From positions 1-37,183 of the forward strand of contig JACOZR010000007.1 in assembly GCA_016181245.1 (NCBI GenBank): a stretch of DNA of 37,183 bases. Direction: 5' to 3'. Below the pieces are notes generated by a model, which saw nothing but the letters and a program-made list of their open reading frames with translations, had not been told where the DNA came from and made no database searches. Origin of the DNA: Candidatus Woesearchaeota archaeon (lineage in GTDB: Archaea > Nanobdellota > Nanobdellia > SCGC-AAA011-G17 > GW2011-AR20). Each line of letters starts with the position of its first letter. Positions within the stretch are counted from its first letter, which is position 1. A program made the position numbers and the translations under genes. Of the stretch, positions 11,687 through 15,689 are shown in pieces.

Positions 11687-11752
11687 ATGAATGAGTGTGA
11701 GAATAAGGGTATTGTTAGACTGGAAGATTTGTCTGAGGTGTATACTAAATGA
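11687..11752 (+). CDS. Putative 21-aa upstream ORF (MNECENKGIVRLEDLSEVYTK) coupled by ATGA to the endonuclease Q gene
   Basis: TATA-like TTTATAAA at 11656–11663 is about 25 nt upstream of its ATG; its TGA overlaps the 11749 ATG. Confidence 0.4.
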   Translation: MNECENKGIVRLEDLSEVYTK

Positions 11753-14334
11753 ATCTAATCAGTGATCTTCAAATTCATTCTTCTTATTCACGAGCTACTA
11801 GCAAGAATATAACTTTTCAAAATTTGGAGAAATATGCCAAAATTAAAGGATTAGACTTACTTGGCACTGGAGATTTTCAGCATCCTAAACAATTCGAAAT
11901 GATTAACAAAGAATTGGAAGAAGATGAGAATGGCATTTTATGGAGTAAGACTAAATTTCCTTTTTTATGGCAAACAGAAATAAGTTTAATTTATACTCAA
12001 AATGGAAAGGGACAAAGAATACATCATTTGATTTTTTCTCCTAGTAAAGATGTGGCTAAACAAATTATTGGTGCATTGGGGAAAAAAGGAAGATTAGATT
12101 ATGATGGAAGACCAATATTTGGGTTTAATAGCATTGAATTAGTGGATATGATGAGGGGTATTAGTGAGGATATAGAAATAATTCCTGCGCACGTATGGAC
12201 AAGTCACTTTAGTTTAATGGGAGAGTATAACCAACTTACTAAGGTTGAGGATTGTTTTCAGGATAATACAAAATATATTCATGCGCTGGAAACTGGGATG
12301 TCGAGCAATCCCGCTGATAACTGGAGAATCAACTCTTTAGATAAATTTCAATTAGTAAGCTTTAGTGATGCCCATTGCGTTCATCCTGAAACTTTTATAA
12401 CTTTGGAAGATGGTTATGTTTTGCCTATAGATAAAATCGCTAATGAGTTAGTTGTGTCTCATGCGGATTTTAAAGATATGTCTTATAAAAACGGAATTAA
12501 AATTCAAAACTCTAAGATATTTTCTCCATCTACATTAAAATATATTAAGTATGATGGAGGAGAAATCAAAGTTTCTGAAAATCATAGATTTTATGCTTTT
12601 GAAAATGAGAACATTAAGGAAAAATATGCATCAGAATTAAAATCTGGTGATTTTTTGGTGAGAATAGCGAGAATTGATCATACAGATAAAGGTTCTATTG
12701 AATTAAAAAGACCAAAGTTTGATACCTATTTTAAATTGAATGATCGGGGAACAGAATTTCTTAAAAAACAAAGAATAAAAAATGGGTATTTTCAAAAGGA
12801 ATTGGCAGACTTGATTGGACTACACGTTGATCATTATTGGAAAATAGAAAAAGGGCTTGTAAAAATCAATAAAAGATTTCTAATAAATTTATCTAATATC
12901 TTAGATTTTAATTATAAAGACTTTATTAAAGAATCTATAGTTGAAAAATATCCTAACTTTTCTTTTCCTAAAGAATCTTCTGTGGAGCTTTTAGAATTAT
13001 TAGGTTATACTATTGGGGATGGATGTTTTACAAAAATAAATAGGGGAGAATGTATATTGCTTACAGATAAAAATGAAAAAATTCTTAAATATTATCAGGC
13101 TATTGTGAGAAAGTTATTTTTATGCAACTCAAGATTACATAAATGTACTACAAAAGGTTCTTATGAATTGGTTTTACCTTCTTTGGTTTCAAAATTTATA
13201 AAGATAAATTTTTCAGAACTATCTAGAAAGAGTCAATATAGGAATGTCCCTAGGAGGTTTTATTCATTGCCCTTAGAACAAATCTCAGCCTTTTTGAGGG
13301 GATTTTTTGATGCGGAAGGATGTATGGGCCACCATGGAGCCGATGCTTGTTCTGCAAATAAGTTATTGATATATCAAATTGACTCTTTGTTGAAAAAATA
13401 TGGCATCTTTACTTCGTTCCATCTTAATCAGTTAAATAAAGAAAAGAAAAAATTTAGACATAGATTGTATATTTATGGTGAAAACTTAAAGATTTTTTAT
13501 GAAAATATCAATTTTAATCATGAAGCAAAAAAATTTAAATTAGAGTCATATATTTCTAAATTAACAATTCATAGAAAATCTAAAATAAAACGACTAGGAG
13601 ATTTTATTCTTTGTAAGGTTAAGTTTGTTGGTGATATAAATTCTGATACTGATTATTTGTATGATATTTCCGTTCCTGTGGCACAGAATTATTTTGCTAA
13701 TCAGATTGTAGTTCATAATTCTCATTGGCCATGGCGTTTAGGTAGGGAGGCTACGATTTTTGACTTTAAAGAATTGACTTACAATAACTTTTTAAAAGCT
13801 ATTAGAACTGGAAGTGGATTTAAAAGTACAATAGAAACACCTACTCTTTATGGCAAATATCACTATACGGGGCATAGAAATTGCGATGTTGTTTTTTCTC
13901 CAGATGAATCTAGGAAATTAAATAAAGTTTGCCCCAAATGTCATGAAAAATTAACAATTGGTGTTGCTGATAGGATAGAAAAACTAGCTGATAGACCCGA
14001 AGGCTATAAAAGGGGAAATTCTAAACCTTTTGTTTCCTTAATTCCTTTGCATGAATTGATAAGCTCTGTTTATGACATTAAACAATTAGAATCTAAAAAA
14101 GTCTGGGAAATTTATAATCTTTTGATTAAAAATTTTAATAATGAATTCAATGTTTTATTGAATGTTAAAGAGGATGAATTAAAAAAAATTATTAATGAAA
14201 AATTAGCTAAAGTTATTTTGATGAATCGGGAAGGAAAATTGAGATTGAAGGCAGGCTTTGATGGTGTTTATGGTTCTATTCTTTTAGATGAAGAATACAA
14301 AATAAAAATGCAGAAAAGCTTAGGAGAGTTTTAG
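11749..14334 (+). CDS. Endonuclease Q-like PHP-domain DNA repair nuclease, interrupted by an intein
   Basis: Extein motifs DLQIHSSYSRATSKNITF, GTGDFQHP, HVWTSHFSLMG, SDAH|SHWPWRLGREATIF, zinc-binding C...CPKCHEKL; extein total about 413 aa. Confidence 0.88.
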   Translation: MNLISDLQIHSSYSRATSKNITFQNLEKYAKIKGLDLLGTGDFQHPKQFEMINKELEEDENGILWSKTKFPFLWQTEISLIYTQNGKGQRIHHLIFSPSKDVAKQIIGALGKKGRLDYDGRPIFGFNSIELVDMMRGISEDIEIIPAHVWTSHFSLMGEYNQLTKVEDCFQDNTKYIHALETGMSSNPADNWRINSLDKFQLVSFSDAHCVHPETFITLEDGYVLPIDKIANELVVSHADFKDMSYKNGIKIQNSKIFSPSTLKYIKYDGGEIKVSENHRFYAFENENIKEKYASELKSGDFLVRIARIDHTDKGSIELKRPKFDTYFKLNDRGTEFLKKQRIKNGYFQKELADLIGLHVDHYWKIEKGLVKINKRFLINLSNILDFNYKDFIKESIVEKYPNFSFPKESSVELLELLGYTIGDGCFTKINRGECILLTDKNEKILKYYQAIVRKLFLCNSRLHKCTTKGSYELVLPSLVSKFIKINFSELSRKSQYRNVPRRFYSLPLEQISAFLRGFFDAEGCMGHHGADACSANKLLIYQIDSLLKKYGIFTSFHLNQLNKEKKKFRHRLYIYGENLKIFYENINFNHEAKKFKLESYISKLTIHRKSKIKRLGDFILCKVKFVGDINSDTDYLYDISVPVAQNYFANQIVVHNSHWPWRLGREATIFDFKELTYNNFLKAIRTGSGFKSTIETPTLYGKYHYTGHRNCDVVFSPDESRKLNKVCPKCHEKLTIGVADRIEKLADRPEGYKRGNSKPFVSLIPLHELISSVYDIKQLESKKVWEIYNLLIKNFNNEFNVLLNVKEDELKKIINEKLAKVILMNREGKLRLKAGFDGVYGSILLDEEYKIKMQKSLGEF
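12376..13719 (+). mobile_element. Intein (448 aa) with LAGLIDADG homing endonuclease and internal HTH-like region
   Basis: Block A CVHPETFITLEDGYVLPIDKI; block B-like VSENHRFYAF; LAGLIDADG-like LLGYTIGDGC and FLRGFFDAEGC; C-terminal YDISVPVAQNYFANQIVVHN followed by Ser +1. Confidence 0.95.
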
Positions 14335-14921: not shown

Positions 14922-15689
14922 TTAACCAATATAACTTACTTTATCTTGTTGGACAGACATAGCTTTTGTTAATTTGCTTAATGTTTTTGAAGAGATATCC
15001 ATTTCTTTTTCTATACTCTCTATTTCTTTATCTAAGCTTTTAATGTTTAAATCTAACTCTAGAGAGTCTTTTAATACTGCAAGAAGTTCTCTAGCTCCTC
15101 TTATGCCTATATAAGTTGGATGACCGAATGTTTGAGCTAGCAATATCATGCCGGGAATTTTTCTTTTAGAAGCTAAGCCTATTAATAAACCAGAAACTCC
15201 AATAATCGGGCCTACAACTCCAAAGATATTTGAATTAACATTTTTTGTTTTATATTTTTTTATAATTGCTTTTTCGTTTGCGGTACAATATACTAATGGT
15301 TGCTTTGGTATTTTTGGCAAACCAATGCCTCCAAGTGTGATTATTTCTTTTCCGTTGTGCTTTTGAAATATATCTAGTATTATTTCACAAAATGCATGGC
15401 AAGATTTTTCATCCAAAGGCTGAATGTCCCCTGATACAAAAAGAAAATCTCCCTTTTTACCTTTTTTATAATAAACATCTATTTTTGGCAAATCTATAAG
15501 ATTTTCTTCATTAACAAATACTGAATGAGGAAAATTAGATGAATGAATTTCAAGCATCTTTTTTGCATCTATCTCGTCTATAATAAAATCTATTGCTATT
15601 TTACCTACGTTTCCTATTCCCGGTAAACCTTCTATTAGGATAGGATTTTTTAGCTTAGGCTTTTCAATTTCTTTTATTTCAAATTCCAT
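14922..15689 (-). CDS. PAC2-family protein (proteasome assembly chaperone-like)
   Basis: ILIEGLPGIGNVGKIAIDFI...ITLGGIGLPKIPKQPLVYCTA...GVVGPIIGVSGLLIGLA; conserved archaeal neighbourhood. Confidence 0.88.
   Translation of the reverse strand: MEFEIKEIEKPKLKNPILIEGLPGIGNVGKIAIDFIIDEIDAKKMLEIHSSNFPHSVFVNEENLIDLPKIDVYYKKGKKGDFLFVSGDIQPLDEKSCHAFCEIILDIFQKHNGKEIITLGGIGLPKIPKQPLVYCTANEKAIIKKYKTKNVNSNIFGVVGPIIGVSGLLIGLASKRKIPGMILLAQTFGHPTYIGIRGARELLAVLKDSLELDLNIKSLDKEIESIEKEMDISSKTLSKLTKAMSVQQDKVSYIG

Follow-up and report, generated by a model that had tools for sequence, protein, structure and literature searches.

Endonuclease Q (EndoQ) is defined by its cleavage of DNA on the 5' side of deoxyinosine or uracil. 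In the Pfu enzyme (PfuEndoQ), the highly conserved PHP residues are D6, L7, H8, H10, H139 and S191-H194, together with E76, H84 and E167, and the discovery paper singles out SDAH as the most conserved EndoQ motif (PMC4357722). The preference of inteins for conserved active-site positions is well known (PMC7765530), as the sequence-only reading of the present locus had held, and hosts invaded at several sites are represented by MCM and PolB (PMC10643990). HTH-like accessory domains are known from the TliVMA and PI-TkoII inteins, and that of TliVMA contacts DNA (PMC8966425). Catalogued DPANN inteins are few, with a 2023 table holding 2 DPANN genomes and 1 intein (PMC10643990). The collection of papers searched holds no report of an EndoQ intein, and the only inteins in PHP proteins found in it were those of bacterial DNA polymerase III. 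The position described here, the junction between SDAH and the following serine (SDAH/S, site c; the slash marks the insertion point), is apparently unreported as an intein position.

The window is the whole 37,183-nucleotide stretch of contig JACOZR010000007.1 that was analyzed, from a Candidatus Woesearchaeota archaeon with a 0.9-Mb, ~83% complete genome in 51 contigs. Its EndoQ gene and the insert within it comprise the following features, all on the forward (+) strand.

11749-14334, +: EndoQ precursor open reading frame with in-frame intein, 861 aa, matching TIGR00375 and PfuEndoQ
11749-12375, +: N-extein, EndoQ residues 1-209, last residues SDAH; 89% identity to the equivalent stretch of a same-genus genome (G001)
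12184-12192, +: PAH motif, equivalent to site a, empty in the window
12289-12303, +: ETGMS motif, equivalent to site b, empty in the window
12364-12375, +: SDAH motif, in which D207 and H209 do not vary among 20 EndoQs; H209 is H194 in PfuEndoQ numbering (PMC4357722)
12376-13719, +: intein, 448 aa, Cys1 to Asn448, precursor residues 210-657, beginning with C and ending VVHN
12376-12396, +: block A, start CVHPETF, with the Cys1 nucleophile
12565-12594, +: block B, IKVSENHRFY, an SxxH block with H70
12760-12906, +: accessory HTH_3 domain at residues 129-177 of the intein (Pfam HTH_3 match above cut-off, E 1.5e-5); aligns in aRF1 inteins
12988-13023, +: first LAGLIDADG motif, LLELLGYTIGDG, with D215
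13282-13320, +: second LAGLIDADG motif, ISAFLRGFFDAEG, with D312
13654-13719, +: blocks F and G, YLYDISVPVAQNYF ... IVVHN, with D430, H447 and N448; TIGR01443 above cut-off
13720-14334, +: C-extein with stop codon, EndoQ residues 210-413; its first residue is Ser+1 (13720-13722)
13720-13725, +: TCTCAT, a putatively co-converted flank where the four closest relatives read AGCATG

By its full-length match and its retained PHP residues, the host gene is EndoQ. The exteins align with PfuEndoQ (5zb8) in two collinear stretches that break at SDAH/S, with both halves matched (E 4e-40), and PfuEndoQ has an unbroken SDAHSPNPHRLGRE where the window EndoQ holds the intein; TIGR00375 is likewise matched across two stretches (E 9e-51). 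Residues D6, H10, E77, H92, H148, E181, D207 and H209 are invariant in 20 aligned EndoQs and kept in the window, and of the four-Cys zinc motif C264, C280 and C283 are invariant in the same 20 EndoQs, with the fourth Cys outside the invariant set. The window EndoQ reads DLQIHS where the Pfu enzyme reads DLHIHS, and the Gln also occurs in two relatives (L040, L261). The gene's neighborhood is conserved, in that a gene for a PAC2-like protein lies nearby in the window (14922-15689), as it does in two or more distant relatives (L039, L041).

The insert itself is a real intein. It matches the Pfam families Intein_splicing (4e-15, above cut-off), LAGLIDADG_3 and HTH_3, and all class-1 splicing residues are present (C1, H70, D430, H447-N448 and Ser+1), so that the sequence-only reading of an intein directly after SDAH of an EndoQ-like nuclease is borne out, with exact borders and a host confirmed by PfuEndoQ and TIGR00375. 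An alignment with 20 related inteins shows no variation at C1, S67, H70, D312, D430, H447 or N448 and almost none at D215. The N-terminal splicing block TIGR01445 falls slightly below its cut-off (22.8 versus 24.5 bits), and block B has Ser in the usual Thr position, a substitution common to the aRF1 relatives. The 861 codons run without a stop or frameshift, and removal of the intein translation leaves joined exteins of 413 aa, the length that the same reading had estimated. Its further statements, that block A, the LAGLIDADG pair and the VVHN/S end are intact and that the insertion splits the most conserved PHP motif, agree with the residues found (C1, D215, D312, H447, N448 and Ser+1) and with the discovery paper (PMC4357722), respectively. 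The HTH_3 domain, two other EndoQ intein sites and the aRF1, RadA and beta-CASP kin described below go beyond that reading.

The AlphaFold2 model of the intein has a mean pLDDT of 65, being mostly 80-94 in the endonuclease part and of low confidence (<50) in the HTH part. Its best structural match is the TliVMA intein (7qsu, E 6.5e-16), followed by PI-SceI, PI-PkoII/PI-TkoII and PI-PfuI, and the endonuclease part matches the I-DmoI fold with a TM score of ~0.65-0.70 by target length. The window intein shares its three-part build with TliVMA and PI-TkoII, which are LAGLIDADG inteins with an HTH-like domain, but it resides in EndoQ rather than in VMA or a DNA polymerase, is 14-17% identical to them over the fold match, and has an HTH that is of the HTH_3 type by Pfam. 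By analogy with these systems, the HTH of the window intein most likely helps in target choice.

How widely is EndoQ invaded? Genomes with an EndoQ match number 232 of 371 in the phylum of the window and 71 of 99 among close relatives (these two sets overlap), 122 of 156 in the phylum sampled via an Aenigmatarchaeota record, 135 of 300 in that sampled via a Bathyarchaeota record, and 14 of 19 sampled via a Micrarchaeota record. Among the matches listed for these sampled genomes, EndoQ inteins occupy three positions only, designated sites a, b and c. Site a (PAH/C) is occupied in at least ~16 of the sampled archaea, in one of them partially (G033, G053, G054, G166, G171, G288, G298, G316, G330, G402, G408, G475, G489, G549 and G881; partial in G052). 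Site b (ETGxS/S) is occupied in at least six (G033, G367, G578, G583, G592 and G616), and G033 holds inteins at both a and b. Site c is occupied in the window only, among the matches listed. Contigs of G553 and G846 terminate exactly at sites a and b. The residue after site a is Cys in every carrier and mostly Ala, Ile or Val in free EndoQs (Cys in 7 of 70), whereas that after site c is Ser in nearly all EndoQs, and the rarity of site-c inteins is therefore not explained by an absent nucleophile. The site-b inteins of G578, G583, G592 and G616 (L242-L245), all from the phylum sampled via the Bathyarchaeota record, have starts (CYDEET...) and ends (...WCGN) close to those of G033 and G367; on sequence grounds, transfer of site-b inteins between phyla is suggested. 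A second site-c intein was sought in G027, in which contig C74 stops one base short of the site-c junction, and this candidate was rejected, as no intein-bearing contig was found. The ends of C74 (L044) and C35 (L043) overlap by exactly 99 nt, which marks an assembly fork that could reflect mixed site-c intein occupancy. The intein matches in G027 and three other genomes checked are all aRF1 inteins.

A tree of 43 inteins places the site-c intein on a long branch that groups with HTH inteins of RadA and of a beta-CASP nuclease, beside the aRF1 clade; its exact sister is not fixed by the tree, since long branches meet there. The nearest sequences are DPANN aRF1, RadA and beta-CASP nuclease inteins at 25-30% identity (best ~30%), and viral contigs yielded no close kin, just LAGLIDADG inteins at 22-27% identity. 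The site-a and site-b inteins occupy a separate, supported part of the tree, and a close kinship of the site-c intein with them finds no support there, a result to be read with some care in view of the long branch of the window intein. Because the site-c intein lies far from the site-a and site-b inteins in the tree and its nearest identity is 30%, EndoQ has most likely been invaded at least three times independently by different intein lineages. With the DPANN aRF1 (GGQ/S), RadA and beta-CASP HTH inteins, the window intein has in common its domain order, its conserved residues, C1 and Ser+1; it differs from them in host and site, and it lacks the extra C-terminal stretch of most aRF1 inteins, which are ~505 aa long. 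With the site-a and site-b inteins it shares the host enzyme and a location within conserved PHP motifs, but site-a inteins use Cys+1 and site-b inteins end in GN rather than HN. Independent invasion of one gene at several active-site positions resembles the situation in haloarchaeal MCM and PolB, although those are replication proteins with much higher occupancy than EndoQ (PMC10643990).

Several observations on related inteins were made alongside. In many DPANN genomes, aRF1 is interrupted directly behind its catalytic GGQ by members of a family of ~505-aa HTH/LAGLIDADG inteins (L050-L073, L256-L259), and no report of an aRF1 GGQ intein was found in the papers searched. The host genome's own aRF1 has a small intein without an endonuclease at the same GGQ site (L008, G000:C51:6868-7233), and further inteins in this 0.9-Mb genome (contigs C5, C12 and C46; L001-L007) lie in a VirB11/PilT-type ATPase, topoisomerase VI B and RNA polymerase A' and A''. 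In a beta-CASP (aCPSF1/FttA-like) nuclease, another intein (L074:1501-3228) directly follows the metal-ligand motif SHAHLDH, a position akin to EndoQ sites a and c.

The EndoQ of G001, from the same genus, is uninterrupted and 84% identical to that of the window, and those of G021, G038 and G059 are uninterrupted at 77-81% identity. Because the EndoQ genes of these four closest relatives are all uninterrupted, a recent gain of the intein in the lineage of the window is most likely. Immediately 3' of the junction the window has the two codons TCT CAT, where all four relatives have AGC ATG, such that six of six bases differ while Ser+1 is kept, and among 34 codon pairs invariant in the four relatives the next largest difference in the window is three of six bases. 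A change of serine codon between AGY and TCN requires two substitutions. For this reason, co-conversion of a short tract by a donor sequence appears more likely than point mutation at TCTCAT, a comparison that is suggestive rather than proof and concerns a putative tract of two codons only. The corresponding stretch in the EndoQ of G039, from the same order, reads TCA CAT TGG CCA TGG CGT and is nearly identical to that of the window, so a donor of the G039 type is possible. A possible footprint of mobility consists of sporadic occupancy and a six-base flank change that is only suggestive. The view of the sequence-only reading that the element is active or recently active gains support, at the level of sequence, from the intact catalytic residues, the empty nearest relatives and this possible co-conversion.

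Taken together, the explanation that we favor, with a probability of roughly 0.88, is that the insert is a full-length class-1 homing intein lodged between a metal-ligand His and the next Ser of EndoQ. The basis by direct analysis is the sequence anatomy, the predicted fold, the empty sites and the distance from site-a and site-b inteins; from these we infer splicing, DNA cleavage, co-conversion and inactivity of the precursor, and the intein is probably functional. The precursor would be translated as a single 861-aa chain, in which Cys1 would attack the SDAH peptide bond, Ser+1 would take over the N-extein and Asn448 would cyclize, yielding an EndoQ of 413 aa in which SDAHS is unbroken. Since the intein separates the metal ligand H209 from the residue that follows it, PHP chemistry predicts that unspliced EndoQ should be inactive, and selection on EndoQ would thereby preserve splicing. 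Guided partly by the HTH, the endonuclease would cut empty EndoQ alleles at the conserved stretch, and repair would copy the intein in.

One alternative is that splicing is intact while the endonuclease has lost its activity or its target, and the intein has been kept by vertical descent only. That a single occupied allele is known among the matches listed, so that spread at site c is not observed, speaks for this account, yet both LAGLIDADG acidic residues are retained, the four of four empty closest relatives fit recent gain better than long descent, and the flank change is consistent with homing; we regard it as unlikely. A different question is whether the position itself has a function. 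A metal bound by the ligands D207 and H209 beside Cys1 might stall the first step, such that splicing would depend on metal or redox state and EndoQ would be released only under certain conditions or upon a signal. Zn and Cu binding at Cys1 inhibits splicing (PMC7765530), and insertion directly at a metal ligand recurs in EndoQ site-a inteins and in the beta-CASP intein after HxHxDH, but the intein preference for conserved active-site sequence already explains the position, and such gating seems improbable. If true, it would mean that the inteins recurring after a metal-ligand His in DPANN nucleases (EndoQ a and c; beta-CASP HxHxDH) reflect selection and not only site conservation.

Two further readings would deny the element any function or existence. 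Were the insert decayed and non-splicing, the EndoQ gene would be dead, and the absence of a second EndoQ match in the host genome, a draft ~83% complete, has been counted in favor of this; against it stand the uninterrupted frame, the retained splicing residues and the retained invariant EndoQ residues of the exteins, and decay is accordingly very improbable. An assembly chimera might be imagined in a draft of 51 contigs, but the borders are splice-exact, a single frame runs through them on a 37-kb contig, and both flanks are closest to the gene of one relative, which leaves a chimera with hardly any likelihood. A class-1 homing intein remains the most probable reading, for an element known at site c from one copy only.

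As an intein type, the element is an ordinary homing element; what is unusual is its host, its ligand-adjacent position, the pairing of empty and occupied alleles, and the presence of three sites in one enzyme. The finding extends the range of intein hosts to a DNA-repair nuclease, and it shows that, across DPANN and other archaea, one small enzyme has been invaded at three positions of its active site. The natural pair of occupied and empty EndoQ alleles, at 84% identity, offers a system for the study of splicing beside metal ligands and of homing in a reduced genome.
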